Source: a virus
Virus record (IMG/VR): IMGVR_UViG_3300025280_000116
Coordinates: 1-30,093 of that record
DNA: 30,093 nt
Direction: 5' to 3' (one strand)
The notes below the pieces were generated by a model, which made no database searches, was not told the origin of the DNA, and saw only the letters and a program-made list of their open reading frames with translations. Both the position numbers and the translations under genes were made by a program. Positions within the stretch are counted from its first letter, which is position 1. Every line of letters starts with the position of its first letter. This document shows positions 9,879 through 30,093 of the stretch, piece after piece.

Positions 9879-10307
9879 CTACGATTCAATCTTAATTTGT
9901 TTAGGTTTCTTTTCCTCTGGAATGAACCTAGTTAAGTTAATACATAGAAGACCATTCTTCAAGCTCGCACCAACAACTTCTATATCGTCAGCCAATTTAA
10001 ATTGCCGTCTGAAAGAGCGTTGGGCAATTCCTTGATAGAGTTTGCCTTCCTCCTTTTTTTCAGACGATTCGTGCACTATTGTTAAAGTATTTTCTTGTAC
10101 TTCAACGTCTATGTCGTTATCGTCAAGCCCTGCTAGAGCCATTTCGATAGTGTAGTTCTCTCCATCTCTACTCACATTGGTAGGTGGATAGGTAGGTACT
10201 GATACTTCAGTAGCCCTTGATAAGCTGTCGAACAACCTATCAAATCCAACGAACATAGATGCAAATGAGGGTGAATAAAAATCCACCAAGTTATGTTTTA
10301 TAACCAT
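9879..10307 (-). CDS. Small heat-shock protein, Hsp20/IbpA family
   Basis: A 142-residue ATP-independent holdase. The N-terminus has the IbpA-like GFDRLFDSLS (21-30). The alpha-crystallin domain runs from about YPPTNVSRDGENYTI (40-54) through LAGLDDNDIDVEV and GIAQRSFRRQFKLADD to GASLKNGLLCINL (113-125). The terminal IKI (138-140) is the I-X-I motif used in oligomer assembly. Phage-borne Hsp20 is known from marine cyanophages and related phages, where it is thought to help protein folding or scaffolding during infection. Here the huge virion proteins are plausible clients (inference). AAGGAG precedes the ATG, and a hairpin-rich 127-bp leader separates it from the upstream membrane-protein gene. 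Confidence 0.93.
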   Translation of the reverse strand: MVIKHNLVDFYSPSFASMFVGFDRLFDSLSRATEVSVPTYPPTNVSRDGENYTIEMALAGLDDNDIDVEVQENTLTIVHESSEKKEEGKLYQGIAQRSFRRQFKLADDIEVVGASLKNGLLCINLTRFIPEEKKPKQIKIES

Positions 10308-10343
10308 TTCTTTTCTCCTTAATTATAAGCGAGTTATTAATAC

Positions 10344-10374
10344 CTCTTAGACGCCCATAGAGCCGTTCTAAGAG
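10344..10374. repeat. Perfect 8-bp inverted repeat upstream of hsp20
   Basis: CTCTTAGA (10344-10351) and TCTAAGAG (10367-10374) are exact reverse complements around a 15-base loop. Directly beside it is the 10-bp palindrome CTTTATAAAG (10377-10386). It could be an RNA hairpin or a protein-binding site. Confidence 0.5.
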
Positions 10375-10385
10375 AACTTTATAAA

Positions 10386-10418
10386 GCTAGACGTACCTGT
10401 GTATGCCTAGCAGTTTTT
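10386..10418 (+). terminator. Candidate intrinsic terminator, plus-strand reading
   Basis: The arms 10386-10396 and 10401-10411 pair at 10 of 11 positions (one G-T wobble, one A-C mismatch) with a 4-base CTGT loop, followed by AG and TTTTT (10414-10418). In the plus direction it would stop transcripts that read past the nrdB operon into the opposing genes. On the minus strand the hairpin is followed only by TTTAT, so it is weaker there. Confidence 0.4.
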
Positions 10419-10435
10419 GAGCCTTAAACAGGCTC
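10419..10435. repeat. Short hairpin GAGCC/GGCTC
   Basis: A 5-bp GC-rich perfect stem with a 7-base loop, directly after the T-run of the neighbouring hairpin and touching the stop codon of the 37-residue gene. It may protect or define the 3' end of the upstream minus-strand transcript. Confidence 0.3.
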
Positions 10436-10548
10436 TATTTAGACTTCTTAAAAAAGCCTAAAATCTTGTCAAACCACTCTGGCTTTTTAGTATAGATTAT
10501 AAATCCTACTAAAGCCAAAATGATTATCAATCCTATTAAATTATCCAT
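10435..10548 (-). CDS. Small single-pass membrane protein
   Basis: 37 residues from ATG 10548, with AGGA about 8 bases upstream. An N-terminal hydrophobic helix (about 4-19, LIGLIIILALVGFIIY) is followed by a basic, aromatic tail (TKKPEWFDKILGFFKKSK) that would lie as an amphipathic helix at the membrane surface. It sits 8 bases after the three-helix membrane-protein gene in the lysozyme cluster. The shape suits a small holin or lysis accessory, but no family is recognised. Confidence 0.6.
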   Translation of the reverse strand: MDNLIGLIIILALVGFIIYTKKPEWFDKILGFFKKSK

Positions 10549-10556
10549 AGTTTTTC

Positions 10557-10988
10557 CTATCTTCTAACTAAACTGCCTCCAAAATACATACCCACTATAG
10601 CTGCTACTAAATTAGTATCCAGTGGTGTTATCACCAAGCCTGTAAAAGAAATCCATTTCAATACTTCTTTCTCAGCCACAAATAAAAATCCGGGTTTGAA
10701 TTGAAGGTAACCTACAGTAACTTCAATGTCTGGATAGAATATTACTACAACTTTAGGTAATAATACAATAGCAAAAATAGCAGTTAAAGCTATAATTCTT
10801 CTAGTCCATTGAAAGCCTGTGTTCTCATATTCTCTCGCAGCTTTAAAAGCTTTGTGTTGAATATCTGCTCTTGCCAATAACAACTGTTGCTGTAGTTGTC
10901 TAGCCTTTAATGACTGCGACCACATGCTCATAAACCCTGATATCAGAGTTGAGCCTAACATGGTTATTATTTCAAAAGGAAAAGACAT
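10557..10988 (-). CDS. Three-helix membrane protein near the lysozyme (candidate holin)
   Basis: 143 residues. Hydrophobic stretches are at about 4-24, 64-86 (RRIIALTAIFAIVLLPKVVVIFY) and 116-140 (TGLVITPLDTNLVAAIVGMYFGG). A Gln/Lys/Arg-rich amphipathic helix lies between the first two (RQLQQQLLLARADIQ). The size, number of helices and position 170 bases after the lysozyme fit a holin or a membrane-bound virion protein. I recall similar proteins in marine podoviruses without a proven role, so holin is a candidate call only. Confidence 0.65.
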   Translation of the reverse strand: MSFPFEIITMLGSTLISGFMSMWSQSLKARQLQQQLLLARADIQHKAFKAAREYENTGFQWTRRIIALTAIFAIVLLPKVVVIFYPDIEVTVGYLQFKPGFLFVAEKEVLKWISFTGLVITPLDTNLVAAIVGMYFGGSLVRR

Positions 10989-10991
10989 TGT

Positions 10992-11144
10992 TTACTCTTC
11001 TTCTTCTGTGTATATTACTAACATCATATCTTCAAACATTATTCTAAAGTCTTCCAACTGCATAAAAGAAAAATCTTTTTTTATCTGATAATAACAATAC
11101 TTTCGGTACGCATCTTCAAGTTGTTTCTCTGTATATAGTACCAT
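10992..11144 (-). CDS. Small acidic protein of unknown function
   Basis: 50 residues starting at ATG 11144, with GAGG 7 bases before it. The sequence has many Tyr, Met and Glu residues (YRKYCYYQIKKDFSFMQLEDF) and ends in four Glu. No membrane segment and no family recognised. It fills the gap between the lysozyme and the membrane protein, with 14 bases on the lysozyme side and 3 on the other. Confidence 0.6.
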   Translation of the reverse strand: MVLYTEKQLEDAYRKYCYYQIKKDFSFMQLEDFRIMFEDMMLVIYTEEEE

Positions 11145-11158
11145 TATAGTACCTCTTA

Positions 11159-11623
11159 CTAATTTGTCAAGGTCTCGATAGCCTTAACAAAATCTTCCAC
11201 CCTTACTGGTGTCTGTTCCTTCCATTTAGATTGTCCATTTGTACCAGAACCTGTAGAAATTTGGTTGATGGCTTCCTCATAATCCCTAGCTTTCAAAGCT
11301 TTATAAGCTGAAGGAAACTTATGCTGCCAATTTGTACCAAGTTGAAAATTCACTGAGCCTAAAGCCAATAAGAAATCCAGATTATTTATACCTAAGTCAT
11401 GGAGTTGTTGGGCTGCTGAGTACCATGCTTTTTCAGCATCCTTTGATAGCCAAGTATCTAGTATGTCTGCTTCAATGACCTCACCTACAGCATACTGATC
11501 ATTCTCTGCAGAGCTTAGTACGTGTCCAACACCACAGGTAGGATTGCCTAGTGTATCTAAATAGACCTCTTCCCTATAGCCTTCCCTGAGTTTAAGATGG
11601 TCTAAGAAGGTTTGATAGATCAT
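11159..11623 (-). CDS. GH24 lysozyme (T4-type endolysin)
   Basis: 154 residues. The N-terminus holds the T4-lysozyme catalytic triad at exact spacing: E14 (REGYR), D23 (VYLDT) and T29 (GNPTCGVGH), matching E11, D20 and T26 of T4 lysozyme. It cleaves the peptidoglycan sugar backbone to release virions. No signal peptide or N-terminal anchor is evident, so it needs a holin to reach the wall. T7 itself uses an amidase (gp3.5), so this phage differs. The gene lies 36 bases after the giant ejection protein and before a set of small membrane-protein genes, one of which may be the holin. Confidence 0.9.
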   Translation of the reverse strand: MIYQTFLDHLKLREGYREEVYLDTLGNPTCGVGHVLSSAENDQYAVGEVIEADILDTWLSKDAEKAWYSAAQQLHDLGINNLDFLLALGSVNFQLGTNWQHKFPSAYKALKARDYEEAINQISTGSGTNGQSKWKEQTPVRVEDFVKAIETLTN

Positions 11624-22646: not shown

Positions 22647-25601
22647 TTAACCTCCTCCTTCTAGAAAGCCATCAAACAACGAGGTAACAGCTTTCATTCT
22701 TGTTTCCCAATCAGCTTCTTCATAATTATCACTTTCGTTGCCAAGCATAGCTATATACATGGAAGCTTTTCGTTGTTCATAGTTATCATAAGTTCTAAAT
22801 GCATAGTCTGCTTGATCTCTTAATTCCTGCCACATAAATGCTTGAGCCTGTGTAGACAATTGAAAAGCATTCTGTGCATTGAATTGAACTACAGCATTTT
22901 TAGCTGCTGTATCTAATGTACTAATATCTCTTCGCCATTTTAAATCAGCTTGTAAAATTTGATTAGCAGAGGTAGTATTAAATTGTTCTCTAGCAAAATC
23001 TTGTTTAGCATTAAACTCATTTATAGTATTTTTCATTTGTGCATTAAATTTCTCAACATCAGTTTCGTTAGCAACTCGTCTAGCTTCTGCAGCATTTTCT
23101 TGTTGCGTATTAAATTGTTCCATTGTATTAAGCTGTGTCTTATTATATTGATCTGTTTGTGCAGCTAAATTAGCCATAAACTGATCTGTTTGCATTTGAC
23201 TTGATGAATTAAATTGTTCAGCAGCATTAGTAGCAGATTGATTACTTAACAGTCTTTGTTGATGTTGTTGTCCTCTTAATATTTCTGATTGTTGTCTTCT
23301 ATCCAAATTTGACATATCCATAGCTAAGAAACTTTGAGCGTTCTGTGCAGCTAGTCTGGTATTAGAATCTAATTGAGCTACATCTAATTGTGCCATTGAC
23401 GCAGCGTTTTGTAAAGTAGCCTTCTGTTCATTATCAGTATCAGTAAGTGTTACAGTCTGTAAAAATTTCTTATTAGATAATTCTCTTTGAACATCAGAAC
23501 TAAACTGAGCTAAGTCTAAATCAAATACATTATCAGCATTAGATATAGCTGTCTGTGTTCCTAATTGTGCATCTAAACGTGAAGCCTGTGCTTCGATATC
23601 TCTTTGTTGTAAAACACTCTCTTTAATAGATGTTGCATTTGACTGTGCCATAGGCATAGCTGTTTGTACAATAGCATTAAATAAAGCATCTCTACCAACT
23701 GTAGAAACATCTAGTCCTCTCTCTGCCATAATCTGATTAACAGCAGCCACAGCAGGATTTGCCCATTGTGGAATATTACCATCTTGAAGACCTGATAATA
23801 AATTATCCAGTTGTGTACTTACTAAAGCTTCGTTAGGTAATCCTTCTACCATACCTCGTTCTGCTTCAGTAAAGTCCATTAAACGAGCTTCTAAGTCTGC
23901 AGGATTATTGCCAAGCTCTGCTATCATTTCTTCAGATAAACCTGCTCGTCTTAATTGTTTCTTAGCTCGTAGAACTTTAGGTAAGTTTGTACCAGTAACA
24001 CTAACAGCAGTTGCTATAGCTTCAGGTCTAAACGTACCAACAACTCTATCAGCTAATGCACCAGCAGCTTGTTGAGTATCTACATCTACGCCAGTGGCAG
24101 CTAAAGTCATAGCTTGTGTTTGCATATTAGCTACTGCCTGAGGGCTTACATTACCAGTTACATCGTCTATAATAGGAGCTTCAGCTTCAGTAACTTCTTT
24201 AGCAGTATAAGTATCTGCTGTTACTTCTCTAGGTGCAGCAGCAGTTACTGCTGTACCAGTTTCAACTTGTTCTCCAACAGTAGGTAATTGAGCTGTTTCT
24301 GCGTCAGGTCTATAAGTAGGGTCCATTGTTTCATAAGTACCTGCTTCTCCTTCTGGCACTTTATAGACACCTGTTTCAGGATCAATAACAGCACCTGCAG
24401 GTAAACCTTCTCCTCTAGCAGCAGCTTCTAAACCTTCTGCACTTCTAGCATATCTTTCTTGACGTTCTTTTATTTGTTCAGGAGTTAAGCCAGTATCTTG
24501 ACCAAAACCAATATCAGGTTTTATAAATGTTCCAGAAGTTGAATCCCAAAGATAACCTTTCTCACGTTGTAAATCTATCATTGCTGGAGTTGGTACATGC
24601 TTTCCAGCTTCTGCATCCCAAGTCCAATAATCATCACTTTCACCTTCAACAGGTGTAGTAACTATAGAGCTTGATCCAGTTTCTTCCCATCTTGCACGAC
24701 CTTCTAAAAATTCTATTGCTTCATCTTGAGTTCTAAAAACTAAGTTATGTGATTCTCCCGGAACTCTACTCCAACCTTCATCCGTAAAACCAATCTGACC
24801 ATTAGTAGGATCAATCCAGAATATATCCATTAAATAGCCAGAAGAACGATCACCTTCTATATTATATAAATTTCTGTTACTATTACCTTCCTCACTCAGC
24901 CATTGTCCTAAAGATGAACCTGTGTCATATGGGTCTTTTTCAGGTTCTACTGCTGCAGGTGCAGGTGCAGGAGCTGGTGCAGGTGCAGGAGCTGGTGCAG
25001 GTGCAGGAGCTGGTGCAGGTGCAGGAGCTGGTGCAGGTGCAGGAGCTGGTGCAGGTGCAGGATCACGAACTGGGTCCCATAAAGGATGCCCCGGTCCGAA
25101 AGGTATTGGTGGTGGTAGTGTATCTATAGGTGGTGGAGCTACTGGAGGTGGTGGAGCCACAGGTGGTCTTTCAACTGTTTCAGGACCAGTAGTAAGAGCT
25201 GTGGTTGGTGTTGTACCACCACTAGAAACTATAGGAGCTGTAGGAGCTGCTGGTTGTTGAGATAAAAAAGTAGAACCCGGCATTCTTGCTTCCTGTTCTT
25301 GTGCAGCTTTAAGATGTCTTTGGTATCCTTCAGGGTCTGCTGCTACAGCTTTAGGGTCTACACCCGGTGGGAGTGTAGGAGCTGGTGTAGTAGGAGCAGT
25401 AGGCTGAGTTTGAGTAGGTCTAGGTTTTCTTCTTTGAGCTTGTTGCTTTAACTCTTCTTCTTCTGCTCGACCTCTTGGTCCACCACGTTGTAAAGCCACA
25501 CGACCACCCTTACGCATGTCTAAACGTGCAGTACTATCTTTACGAGAGCGTAGTTTTTTATTCTTTCTAGCTATTTTTTTATTTTTACTATTTCTTGCCA
25601 T
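22647..25601 (-). CDS. Large structural protein with Pro-Ala tract and QFN-rich helical region
   Basis: 984 residues. A basic N-terminus (KNKKIARKNKKLRSRKDS, then RLDMRKGGRVALQRGG) is followed by a Pro/Thr/Ala-rich region with 18 consecutive Pro-Ala dipeptides, then an acidic Gly-rich part. The C-terminal third is long Ala/Gln/Asn-rich helix with recurring QFN or EFN about every 11-14 residues, a likely extended coiled coil. It ends with the pattern WRRDISTLDTAAKNA...LWQE-like RDQADYAF that I recall from marine podovirus virion proteins. Function is probably structural, in the tail or inside the capsid. Confidence 0.65.
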   Translation of the reverse strand: MARNSKNKKIARKNKKLRSRKDSTARLDMRKGGRVALQRGGPRGRAEEEELKQQAQRRKPRPTQTQPTAPTTPAPTLPPGVDPKAVAADPEGYQRHLKAAQEQEARMPGSTFLSQQPAAPTAPIVSSGGTTPTTALTTGPETVERPPVAPPPPVAPPPIDTLPPPIPFGPGHPLWDPVRDPAPAPAPAPAPAPAPAPAPAPAPAPAPAPAPAPAPAAVEPEKDPYDTGSSLGQWLSEEGNSNRNLYNIEGDRSSGYLMDIFWIDPTNGQIGFTDEGWSRVPGESHNLVFRTQDEAIEFLEGRARWEETGSSSIVTTPVEGESDDYWTWDAEAGKHVPTPAMIDLQREKGYLWDSTSGTFIKPDIGFGQDTGLTPEQIKERQERYARSAEGLEAAARGEGLPAGAVIDPETGVYKVPEGEAGTYETMDPTYRPDAETAQLPTVGEQVETGTAVTAAAPREVTADTYTAKEVTEAEAPIIDDVTGNVSPQAVANMQTQAMTLAATGVDVDTQQAAGALADRVVGTFRPEAIATAVSVTGTNLPKVLRAKKQLRRAGLSEEMIAELGNNPADLEARLMDFTEAERGMVEGLPNEALVSTQLDNLLSGLQDGNIPQWANPAVAAVNQIMAERGLDVSTVGRDALFNAIVQTAMPMAQSNATSIKESVLQQRDIEAQASRLDAQLGTQTAISNADNVFDLDLAQFSSDVQRELSNKKFLQTVTLTDTDNEQKATLQNAASMAQLDVAQLDSNTRLAAQNAQSFLAMDMSNLDRRQQSEILRGQQHQQRLLSNQSATNAAEQFNSSSQMQTDQFMANLAAQTDQYNKTQLNTMEQFNTQQENAAEARRVANETDVEKFNAQMKNTINEFNAKQDFAREQFNTTSANQILQADLKWRRDISTLDTAAKNAVVQFNAQNAFQLSTQAQAFMWQELRDQADYAFRTYDNYEQRKASMYIAMLGNESDNYEEADWETRMKAVTSLFDGFLEGGG
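24954..25061 (-). repeat. 18-bp tandem repeats encoding (Pro-Ala)18
   Basis: 108 bases encode 18 uninterrupted Pro-Ala dipeptides. The plus strand repeats GGTGCAGGTGCAGGAGCT as an 18-base unit (three dipeptides), so codon choice repeats as well as the amino acids. Pro-Ala tracts form stiff extended linkers. The number of units probably varies by slippage. Confidence 0.9.
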
Positions 25602-26202: not shown

Positions 26203-29200
26203 TTACTCCTTATTATTAAGTTGTTTTTCTAAATCTTCGACTTTTGCCGAGAGTTCTTTTATTGCATTGATGAGAGGTGTTATAAACATTTCTCTGGATA
26301 CTGATTGTCCATCTACAGTTTCATCCCACCCATTAAAAGTTGTATTACCTACTTTGTTCATAGCTTCTTTAACATCTTGTGCTAAAAGTCCATGAATTAA
26401 AGTTTCTGTGTCTTTTTCGCCTTTATTTAAACGAGTTGCTTGAAACTCAGGATCAACTTCTGCTTGTGGTTTCCAATTAAATGTAACTGGATTTAATTCA
26501 TTGATAAAAGCAAGACCTAAAGTATCATCATTAATATTCTTTTTTAATCTTTTATCAGATGTTTGAGTCCATGTATTATTAGAAGTAAAGTCATTATAAA
26601 CATGCCCTCCACTTGATCCTATATGTGTTCTATCGTTTGCCGTTCCAGTAAGAGAAAAACCTATAACATTTTGAGTGTTTGCTCCAGAAGCAGAAGGATC
26701 AGTTCCATAGCCTATACAGATGTTATGACCTCCAGTGGTTACAACATCTCCTGCGGAATGACCCAAATTAACATTATAATTACCTGTTGTGGTGTTTCTT
26801 CCAGCACCAATACCAACAGAAACACTCTCTGTACCTGACGTTAAGTTTTCCAAAGCACTCCAGCCTACTGCTACGTTAGATACAGTCGAATTTTGATTTT
26901 TTAAAGCATAATAACCAATAGCTACACTGTTTGCACCTGCTGTATTTGTTGACAGTGCATAAGTACCAATCGCTGTATTACTAGCACCAGTAGTTATTGC
27001 TGCTCCTGCGGCTATTCCCACAGCCGTATTACTTAGAGCTGATGTTAGTGAATCCAAACAATAAGCACCAACAGCAGTATTGTTGCCATAAGTGGCTAAT
27101 GTTAAAGCGTTATAACCAACTGCTGTATTATTATTAGCAGTTACATTTGCTGCTAAAGCACTCTTACCAACGGCTACGTTGGCTGTTCCTGTCGTGTTTG
27201 CTCCTAAAGCTGCATAACCCATTGCTGTATTATTATCTGCTGTGGTATTAGCGTCTAAAGCTAAAGTACCAACAGCAACATTAGAAGCACCAGTGGTGTT
27301 TGATAATAAAGCATTTTTACCAACGGCTGTGTTATTAGAAGCTGTGCTATTGCTATATAAAGTATTATTACCATAGGCTGTATTGCTAGCACCAGTGGTA
27401 TTTACTCTCAAAGCATCTCTACCAATAGCAGTATTATCATTTGCAGTTGTATTAGCACCTAAAGCATTAAAACCGATTGCTGTATTATAATCACCAGTTG
27501 TATTAGCGTCTAAAGCTGTAGAACCCACAGCTACATTACCTGTACCTGTCGTGTTTGCTGTTAAAGCAATATTACCCACAGCCGTATTACCATCTGCTGT
27601 CGTATTGGCATCTAAACATTGATAACCAAGTGCTGTATTACCAGCACCTGTCGTGTTTGCATATAAAGCCTGAGAACCTATACCAGTGTTGTTTGATCCT
27701 GTGGTATTTGCATACATAGCCTGAGAACCTATACCAGTGTTCTCTGTACCACTTGTATTTGAGGTTAATGCAACATGACCCATAGCAGTATTATAATTTG
27801 CTGTGGTAGCAGCATCTAAGGCTTGTACACCGATTGCTGTATTTCCAGTACCTGTCGTATTAACTAATAAAGAGTTCATACCAACTGCTGTGTTATTTGA
27901 TGCTGTTGTATTATCTCTTAATGCATTAACTCCTAAAGCAGTATTTAAACCACCAGTAGTATTTGCTCCTAAAGCATCAACACCTATAGCAGTATTATCT
28001 TCTCCTGTTGTATTAGCATCTAAAGCTTGATAACCCATTACTGTATTTTTATCACCAGTAGTTAAAGCTGCAAATACATCAATACCTAAACCAGTATTAT
28101 AATTTGCTCCACTAATAGTTCCTGTTGTAGCATCTCCCAACATAATTGAACCAGTACCAAAAGTCTTAGCATCTGATAAACCATCTAAATCTGATGCACC
28201 ACCACTTGCAGCATTTTCCCAAGCTACCCCACTTCCTGTTGAAGTAAGTACTTGTCCATCACTACCTTGTGCTCCACCAACTGTTAAATTATCTGTTTCT
28301 AGTGTTCCATCAACATCTACATTTCCAGATATATCTAAAGACCCTGCATCTAATTCACCTGCAATAGTTAATAAACCACTTGAAGGATTATAGGTAAATC
28401 CAGTATCTGTTTCAGCTCCTTGAGAACCTGTTGCACCATCTACGAATACAGGATATACAGTTTCATCTGTTGAGTTATTAGCACTAACTGTTACACTAGT
28501 TGCTAAGTCTGCTGTACCTGTAACATCTCCTGTTAATGGACCTGCAAAGGCATCTGATGTTACTGTACCATCAAAGAACGCATCTTTGAACTCCAAAGAA
28601 CTTGTACCTAAGTCTATTTCATTATCTGTTACTGGATATAATGCACTAGATGTTAATGTTAATCTAGCTGCGTTGTCTGCTTTGAAATCAATTTCATTTG
28701 CTGTTCCAAAGTCAATAGCAGTTTGAGAATCTTCTCCTAAGATTAAATCTGTAGCATATATTGAAGTTATACCTGTTTGAGCTGCGTCTACAGCAAGATC
28801 AACTGTATTATCTCCATCTTGATATGTTACTGTAATACCACTTTCAGTATTACTTGAGAACATAGCACCTGCTGTATCAGCTATATATTCTGCTAAAGTT
28901 GTACCATCTACTGTAATCGCATCAGCTTCTAATGTTCCGTCAATATCTGCGTTACCTGATACATCTAATGTAGTTAAATCTAACTCTCCTGCTATAGTAA
29001 CATTACCATCTGCTAAAGTTATTAAGTCTGTATCAGAAGTATGTCCAATAGTTGTTCCATTAATGATAACATTATCAACTGTTAAAGTTGTTAGTGTACC
29101 TAAACTTGTTACATTTCCTTGAGCTGCAGTATTTAATGTACCTGCAAAAAGTGTAGAAGTTAATAAACCACTAGAAGGATTGTATGTTAAACCTGTATCA

Positions 29201-30093
29201 CTCTCAGCACCTTGCGATCCTGTAGCTCCGTCAACAAAGATTGGGTATACTGTTTCATCTGTACTATTATTTGCAGAAATTGTAATATTATCTGCTGTTC
29301 CTGTTGTATCTTGGTTTAATGTTCCAATAACAAAGTCTAAAGTATTGTCTCCATCTTCGTAAGTAACTGTTATATTAGTTTCAGTATTCGAGCCAACCAT
29401 AGCACCGACTGTATCGGCTATGTATTCATTTAAAGCAGTTCCATCAACTGTATATGCATCTGCTTCAAGTGTACCATCTATATCGGCATTACCTGAAATA
29501 TCTAAACTTGTAGCATCAACTTCACCAGCAACTGTAACTACACCACTTGATAGTGTTATTAAGTCTGTATCGCTTGTATGTCCAATTACTGCACCATCAA
29601 TTGCAACATTATCTACAGTAAGTGCTGTTAATGTTCCAAGACTTGTTACATTTCCTTGTGCTGCTGTATTTAGTGTACCTGCTAAAAGTGTAGTAGTTAA
29701 AAGACCACTAGAAGGATTATATGTTAATCCTGTGTCGCTTTCTGCTCCTTGACTTCCAGTAGCACCATCTACAAAGATTGGATAAACTGTTTCGTCTGTG
29801 GAGTTATTAGCTGAAATTGTAATGTTATCAGCAGTACCTGTTGTGTCTTGATTAAGAGTACCTATAACAAAGTCTAGAGTATTATCTCCGTCTTCATAGG
29901 TAACTGTAATATTTGTCTCGGTATTAGAGCCTACCATTGCTCCAACTGTGTCAGCTATATATTCATTAAGAGCTGTTCCGTCTACTGTATAAGCATCGGC
30001 TTCAAGAGTTCCATCTATGTCTGCATTACCACTAATATCTAATGTGGCTGCATCTAATTCACCTGATATAGTGATGTTAGTACCACCTGTCAT
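26203..30093 (-). CDS. Trimeric tail fibre with collagen-free repeats and S74 autochaperone, 5'-truncated
   Basis: Host-recognition fibre, at least 1296 residues. The frame reaches the right edge, and the first in-window Met starts a GGTNITIS segment that looks internal, so the true N-terminus (tail attachment) is probably outside. Residues 11-368 are two 179-residue repeats, followed by a diverged third. Residues about 666-1140 are 28 tandem units of NTA-x-G-x-x-AL-x-x-NTT, 17 residues each, like the repetitive stalks of trimeric adhesins. From about 1175 the C-terminus is a Peptidase_S74 chaperone: SDKRLKKNI supplies the Ser-Lys active site that releases the domain after trimer folding. It ends in a coiled coil (AIKELSAKVEDLEKQLNNKE). 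Confidence 0.93.
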   Translation of the reverse strand: MTGGTNITISGELDAATLDISGNADIDGTLEADAYTVDGTALNEYIADTVGAMVGSNTETNITVTYEDGDNTLDFVIGTLNQDTTGTADNITISANNSTDETVYPIFVDGATGSQGAESDTGLTYNPSSGLLTTTLLAGTLNTAAQGNVTSLGTLTALTVDNVAIDGAVIGHTSDTDLITLSSGVVTVAGEVDATSLDISGNADIDGTLEADAYTVDGTALNEYIADTVGAMVGSNTETNITVTYEDGDNTLDFVIGTLNQDTTGTADNITISANNSTDETVYPIFVDGATGSQGAESDTGLTYNPSSGLLTSTLFAGTLNTAAQGNVTSLGTLTTLTVDNVIINGTTIGHTSDTDLITLADGNVTIAGELDLTTLDVSGNADIDGTLEADAITVDGTTLAEYIADTAGAMFSSNTESGITVTYQDGDNTVDLAVDAAQTGITSIYATDLILGEDSQTAIDFGTANEIDFKADNAARLTLTSSALYPVTDNEIDLGTSSLEFKDAFFDGTVTSDAFAGPLTGDVTGTADLATSVTVSANNSTDETVYPVFVDGATGSQGAETDTGFTYNPSSGLLTIAGELDAGSLDISGNVDVDGTLETDNLTVGGAQGSDGQVLTSTGSGVAWENAASGGASDLDGLSDAKTFGTGSIMLGDATTGTISGANYNTGLGIDVFAALTTGDKNTVMGYQALDANTTGEDNTAIGVDALGANTTGGLNTALGVNALRDNTTASNNTAVGMNSLLVNTTGTGNTAIGVQALDAATTANYNTAMGHVALTSNTSGTENTGIGSQAMYANTTGSNNTGIGSQALYANTTGAGNTALGYQCLDANTTADGNTAVGNIALTANTTGTGNVAVGSTALDANTTGDYNTAIGFNALGANTTANDNTAIGRDALRVNTTGASNTAYGNNTLYSNSTASNNTAVGKNALLSNTTGASNVAVGTLALDANTTADNNTAMGYAALGANTTGTANVAVGKSALAANVTANNNTAVGYNALTLATYGNNTAVGAYCLDSLTSALSNTAVGIAAGAAITTGASNTAIGTYALSTNTAGANSVAIGYYALKNQNSTVSNVAVGWSALENLTSGTESVSVGIGAGRNTTTGNYNVNLGHSAGDVVTTGGHNICIGYGTDPSASGANTQNVIGFSLTGTANDRTHIGSSGGHVYNDFTSNNTWTQTSDKRLKKNINDDTLGLAFINELNPVTFNWKPQAEVDPEFQATRLNKGEKDTETLIHGLLAQDVKEAMNKVGNTTFNGWDETVDGQSVSREMFITPLINAIKELSAKVEDLEKQLNNKE
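26674..28098 (-). repeat. 28-unit, 51-bp tandem array in the tail fibre
   Basis: 475 codons form 28 consecutive units of 17 residues (one of 16). Consensus N-T-A-h-G-x-x-A-L-x-x-N-T-T-G-x-x. The arithmetic is exact: 27 x 17 + 16 = 475. The last seven units are more degenerate. Such repeats build a trimeric beta-roll shaft whose length scales with unit number. Confidence 0.92.
28990..30063 (-). repeat. Two tandem 537-bp repeats in the tail fibre
   Basis: Copy 1 is 29527-30063 and copy 2 is 28990-29526, each encoding 179 residues. About 115 residues in a row are identical in protein, but many third positions differ. A third, strongly diverged copy starts at 28989. Confidence 0.9.

Follow-up and report, generated by a model that had tools for sequence, protein, structure and literature searches.

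A probable ROSE-like RNA thermometer in the leader of a phage hsp20 gene

The DNA analyzed here (the window) is a stretch of 30,093 nucleotides, positions 1 to 30,093 of the IMG/VR virus record IMGVR_UViG_3300025280_000116. The DNA polymerase it encodes is closest to those of the Pelagibacter phages HTVC115P, HTVC104P, and HTVC103P, at 49% identity. A leftward run of genes ends with hsp20, upstream of which lie a 37-amino-acid ORF, an ORF of unknown function, and a lysozyme gene (Table 1). A preliminary description of the sequence had contrasted the hairpin-rich gap before hsp20 with gaps of a few bases between the neighboring genes; same-strand neighbors are indeed mostly 1 to 8 bases apart, with the exception of two wider gaps of 18 and 36 bases. 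Elsewhere in the window, positions 26203 to 30093 hold a long ORF (1,296 amino acids to the window end) with many short repeats of the type NTxxGxxNTAxG, tail-fibre-like by eye, and a proline-alanine repeat (PAPAPAPA) at 24914 to 25260, within a 984-amino-acid minus-strand ORF, is mirrored by repeat-bearing ORFs on the opposite (plus) strand.

Table 1. Features of the hsp20 locus in the window
Feature	Position	Strand	Basis or remark
hsp20, 142-aa small heat shock protein	9879-10307	-	Pfam HSP20, E 1.2e-18; PHROG 432 "Hsp20 heat shock protein", 6e-34
hsp20 leader	10308-10434	-	gap of 127 bases between the 37-aa ORF and hsp20; four hairpins
Shine-Dalgarno sequence AAGGAG of hsp20	10315-10320	-	sequence
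Hairpin D, putative thermometer hairpin holding the Shine-Dalgarno sequence	10315-10333	-	MFE and centroid structures; ROSE_3 match; relatives
Hairpin C (ROSE "hairpin I")	10344-10374	-	perfect 8-bp arms CTCTTAGA/TCTAAGAG
10-bp palindrome CTTTATAAAG	10377-10386		between hairpins B and C; AT-rich
Hairpin B	10386-10411	-	folding; compensatory changes at two pairs among relatives
Hairpin A	10419-10435	-	folding; starts inside the stop codon of the 37-aa ORF; two compensatory pairs
37-aa ORF, upstream neighbor of hsp20	10435-10548	-	ORF list
ORF of unknown function	10557-10988		upstream of the 37-aa ORF
Perfect sigma-70-type promoter, TTGACA-16-TATAAT (12/12)	11143-11170	-	about 700 bases upstream of the leader, ahead of several genes

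The leader folds far better than expected by chance. On the minus strand, the sense of hsp20, its minimum free energy (MFE) was −43.4, compared with −28.2 ± 3.3 for shuffled sequences (z = −4.6), and none of 200 shuffles folded as well; the plus strand gave a z of −3.5. The three hairpins and the palindrome reported earlier were correct in their stems and distances, and the perfect arms of hairpin C lie 36 bases before the hsp20 ATG, within one base of the 37 first given. Hairpins A, B, and C were thus all present as described, but the most important one, hairpin D, had gone unnamed. Hairpin C consists of the 8-bp stem, a bulged A, a single pair, a G that is either bulged or faces another G, and a small loop. 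We rejected hairpin A as a standard intrinsic terminator because no T run follows its stem, the minus strand having an A run instead, and no terminator-like site was listed within 10308 to 10440. No tRNA or tmRNA was found.

In both the MFE and the centroid structure of hairpin D, CUC-[G]-CUUA pairs with UAAG-GAG, so that the Shine-Dalgarno sequence is wholly masked and G10330 is left unpaired. The masking strand is CUCGCUUA, which lacks four consecutive U residues and so does not fit a fourU thermometer. Within the hairpin, UCGCU (10332 to 10328) lies opposite AAGGAG (10320 to 10315), and this corresponds to the U(U/C)GCU motif by which ROSE-type thermometers are recognized. Published definitions (PMC3669281, PMC11182007, PMC11342760, and PMC9450479) describe ROSE-like elements as leaders of two to four hairpins, the last of which contains a U(U/C)GCU sequence that pairs imperfectly with the Shine-Dalgarno sequence and is predicted to leave a G bulged; their typical site is before small heat shock genes. 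All of these sequence features are found in the window: the U(U/C)GCU:Shine-Dalgarno pairing, the bulged G10330, four hairpins, and a small heat shock gene downstream.

We then compared the leader with the Rfam models. ROSE_3 (RF02523) gave a single match in the window, scoring 18.1 bits (E = 0.004, or 0.091 when all Rfam families were run on 161 bases); it spans 10302 to 10352 and so falls precisely on the hsp20 start. ROSE_3 shares with the window leader a pair of hairpins whose 5′ arms both have a bulged G, and its second hairpin (ACUcGCu...aGgAG) masks the Shine-Dalgarno sequence directly before the start codon. The window leader differs in having two extra upstream hairpins, a further bulged A in hairpin I, and a phage location, and its 18.1 bits lie below the curated cutoff of 43 bits; it is therefore not filed as a member of RF02523. 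Among 21 other phage records, 12 had a ROSE_3 match at E 10, 9 had none, and none passed the cutoff; in Melnitz-3 (E = 1.6e-6), C48C1 (1.3e-4), and syn9 (0.031), the model placed its best match at the hsp20 start. Every one of the 14 control genomes likewise gave a match at E 10, and ROSE_3 E values therefore carry meaning only when low. Some matches lay away from hsp20, that in the L039 record being in a dnaK leader. Rfam found nothing at the gathering cutoff in the window or in 20 phage loci, and 20 cellular relatives gave nothing at E 0.05, so its models perform weakly across this entire group of leaders. None of 22 records matched the older ROSE model, RF00435, at E 10. A freshwater-2 match (19.4 of 49.9 bits, E = 0.43) was set aside, as it rests mainly on the Shine-Dalgarno sequence and the start codon.

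Covariation in relatives, which had been proposed as a check on the stems, was found. The window-type alignment had 10 rows, 6 of them distinct, and the remaining window-type loci were identical to these. Across the 6 distinct leaders and 37 pairs, 96.4% of cells pair, and two-sided changes occur at four pairs, two each in hairpins A and B. The covariation score was 0.177 versus 0.128, a value reached by none of 500 shuffles. Hairpins C and D showed one-sided changes only among these 6 leaders. For hairpin D we used a wider set of 43 unique phage leaders, in which the shuffles ignore relatedness. On that basis, pair −1:+1, outside the motif, is C-G, A-U, or U-G in all 43 leaders (52 of 2,000 shuffles as high); pair −2:+2, beside the motif, forms in 18 of 43, against 12.7 when shuffled (1 of 2,000); and pair −4:+4 forms in 27 of 43, against 18.7 (2 of 2,000). 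Pair −3:+3 gave no signal in the same 43 leaders (871 of 2,000). Two loci, L014 and L066, encode an Hsp20 almost identical to that of the window and have a similar Shine-Dalgarno hairpin, with a different hairpin I. MAFFT misaligned hairpin I among divergent leaders, and for that reason hairpin features were tallied leader by leader in place of a covariance model.

Similarity to Hsp20 identified 69 viral loci, 66 of them usable and three without upstream sequence. The motif TYGCT...AGGA preceded the hsp20 start codon in 58 of the 66. By eye, the other eight comprised two with TCGCT before a variant Shine-Dalgarno sequence (AAGGGG), three in which AUC-G-UC pairs with the Shine-Dalgarno sequence otherwise, and three with neither arrangement clearly present. 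Loci L038, L040, and L045 have, before hsp20, a different Shine-Dalgarno hairpin, AUC-G-UCUAAGGA-GAU, with outer pairs that appear compensated by eye (GUAUC/GAUAC versus UUAUC/GAUAA); judged from its sequence, this may be another bulged-G form of thermometer. Nine of 10 named phages that we fetched carried the motif (HTVC103P, HTVC104P, HTVC115P, Mosig, HTVC008M, Melnitz-3, C48C1, P-TIM40, and syn9), and the exact motif was absent from the tenth, S-TIM54. Across the loci examined there were 264 unique ORFs led by a Shine-Dalgarno sequence; 53 had the motif, namely, 48 hsp20 genes, 2 dnaK genes, and 3 others.

We also searched viral contigs for the motif followed by AAGGAG and ATG without reference to hsp20. 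With CTTGCTTA...AAGGAG...ATG, 108 of the 121 matches listed led into hsp20, and with CTCGCTTA, 94 of the 119 listed did so. Pooled, this is 202 of 240 listed matches, compared with none of the 120 listed for the scrambled motif CTTCGTTA. Five more of the listed matches (four and one in the two scans) led into dnaK, as judged by N-terminal sequence. The leaders found in this way were largely independent, only 2 overlapping the first leader set. A selection of 53 leaders used elsewhere in the analysis excluded loci that were nearly identical or lacked the motif. After leaders within 9 mismatches of another were dropped, the 5′ arm of the upstream hairpin I had one bulged G in 105 of 184 nonredundant held-out leaders (72 of 98 and 33 of 86), and another 10 and 35, respectively, had a G:G mismatch instead. 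Among control leaders, 2 of 88 had a bulged-G upstream hairpin, and 6 more had a G:G mismatch. The motif was also seen before small proteins of 69 to 90 amino acids (L089, L204, L212, L218, L243, L251, L277, L280, and L307), several with a bulged-G-like upstream hairpin. These gave no convincing Pfam match where tested; the small helical proteins behind some of the matches are somewhat reminiscent of phasins. At L206, the leader motif precedes a peroxiredoxin gene (AhpC-TSA, 4e-30).

The motif is found beyond phages. TYGCT...AGG[AG] was present in 70 of 80 bacterial relatives, including SAR86, SAR116, Maricaulis, and Photobacterium. A tree was built from 66 of 117 Hsp20 proteins, 34 viral and 32 bacterial. 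Viral and bacterial labels switched on it at least six times, and well-supported branches required two of these switches; the window protein grouped with viral and SAR86 proteins. The motif in bacterial relatives and the label switches therefore make it probable that the gene and its leader moved together, more than once. Some viral contigs hold dnaK as well. In L039 (939 to 1008) and L046 (about 950 to 1006), dnaK has its own ROSE_3-like leader and is followed by hsp20 with a leader of its own. The dnaK leader in the L039 record scores 34.6 bits with ROSE_3 (E = 2.5e-7), and in L046 dnaK (Pfam HSP70, 4e-260) and hsp20 are followed by clpS. In L095, dnaK and hsp20 are followed by heme oxygenase and bilin reductase genes. 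These contigs seem to represent a cyanophage-like protein-quality cassette.

How hsp20 is transcribed bears on where its control would lie. No sigma-70-like site was found on the minus strand of the leader, and to that extent the phage promoter suggested for it is not supported; the perfect site lies far upstream instead, and only 0.043 sites of this type would be expected by chance in the window. Most window-type relatives in which this region is present keep its −35 and −10 elements, with differing spacers. The ATG of a small ORF falls within the overlap with its −10 box. This promoter probably drives a transcript ending in hsp20. In L014 and L066 a perfect sigma-70 promoter stands directly before the leader, and by eye the same seems true of HTVC103P and HTVC115P. 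Since the window leader lacks a sigma-70 site and the conserved promoter is far upstream, any separate control of hsp20 is probably translational. Of the earlier proposal that hsp20 is expressed separately, the part that holds up is thus a probable translational control of its own, within a probably shared transcript, and not a sigma-70 promoter in the leader.

We consider it likely, from sequence and modeled structure, that this marine phage carries a ROSE-like RNA thermometer in the form of its hsp20 leader. The hsp20 mRNA would probably start near 11143 and cross two or three small genes before reaching the leader. There, hairpin D, whose structure comes from folding and comparison, would keep ribosomes off by holding AAGGAG against its partner strand with one G bulged. 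Judging from tested bacterial ROSE elements, warming, or another loosening of this imperfect helix, would expose the Shine-Dalgarno sequence and allow Hsp20 to be made. Hairpin C probably assists the folding of hairpin D; hairpins A and B, seen only in near relatives, appear to be extras; and hsp20 and its leader seem to pass jointly between bacteria and phages. The temperature- or stress-responsive structure suggested in the preliminary description is thus supported by anatomy and comparison: the Shine-Dalgarno hairpin, the ROSE_3 match, the association with hsp20 across phages, and the covariation.

The closest tested counterparts are the short ROSE-like thermometers of Pseudomonas ibpA, in which U(U/C)GCU likewise pairs with the Shine-Dalgarno sequence in a 3′ hairpin before a small heat shock gene. 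They differ from the window leader in lying on a bacterial chromosome, in having two hairpins, and in having been tested experimentally, and in them hairpin II alone suffices for thermoregulation (PMC3669281). Thermometers in phage gene leaders are described for lambda cIII, SPbeta blyA, and a sigma-70 gene of a gut Caudoviricetes phage. Unlike the window leader, the cIII thermometer switches between two states and closes on heating, those of blyA and the sigma-70 gene are of the fourU type, and none of the three controls a small heat shock gene (PMC11182007, PMC4166951). The Synechocystis hsp17 thermometer, like that proposed here, is a leader hairpin controlling a small heat shock gene, but it is a single short hairpin, and the portion of the source available does not mention a ROSE motif (PMC4166951). 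Among the matches listed in the open-licence literature on phage RNA thermometers and on phage, pelagiphage, and cyanophage small heat shock proteins, we found no ROSE element in a phage, and a word search of the text of three papers on cyanophage small heat shock proteins gave no mention of thermometers. The phage thermometers that we found in print are of other kinds than ROSE.

Other readings of the leader deserve weighing. The element might be mainly a sensor of protein stress, with Hsp20 bound to its own leader and repressing translation until unfolded or aggregated protein titrates it away, in which case the trigger would be overproduction of phage proteins and not heat. Open-ocean hosts experience only small temperature swings, which counts in favor of such a sensor. 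The form of hairpin I is conserved among unrelated sequences, as would suit a shared fold or binding site, and one review describes E. coli IbpA as bound to its own mRNA and released on heat shock (PMC8155344). Against this, we found no binding data for any phage Hsp20, and a Shine-Dalgarno hairpin alone would explain the conservation of U(U/C)GCU. We regard Hsp20 sensing as the main function as possible though doubtful; it is also compatible with a thermometer.

A plain hairpin that masks the Shine-Dalgarno sequence might simply hold hsp20 translation at a constant low level within the operon, sensing nothing. The nearest-neighbor energies are in keeping with this and count against a sharply melting thermometer: the sequence remains masked from 4 to 42°C, and although the cost of opening it drops over that range (7.8 kcal/mol at first, 3.8 kcal/mol at the end), no abrupt melting is predicted. 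In many relatives the computed ensemble masks it poorly. Such a hairpin would require neither a fixed U(U/C)GCU nor a bulged G, yet phages and bacteria alike retain both, in association with hsp20 and dnaK, and we think it unlikely. It is more improbable still that the region is a promoter or RNA-processing site splitting hsp20 from the operon, with incidental hairpins: the long gap, the AT-rich palindrome, the position of hairpin A right at the upstream stop codon, and the promoters before the L014 and L066 leaders would fit, but the window leader has no sigma-70 site on the minus strand and its stems covary as RNA.

Returning to the thermometer, a broader and rather speculative extension, which we hold to be somewhat improbable, is that several marine phage lineages share a mobile cassette of gene plus switch (hsp20 and, in some, dnaK, each with a ROSE-type leader). 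Through Hsp20 acting on its own leader, the switch would report the folding load of infection no less than temperature, and the amount of chaperone made would then track the demand of virion assembly. If the thermometer reading is true, ROSE-type thermometers would be common in phages of marine bacteria, including pelagiphages, pelagimyophages, a Methylophilales phage, and cyanophages. This raises the testable question of why an open-ocean phage would keep a heat-controlled chaperone, and the leader alone would allow chaperone and stress genes to be located in viral contigs.
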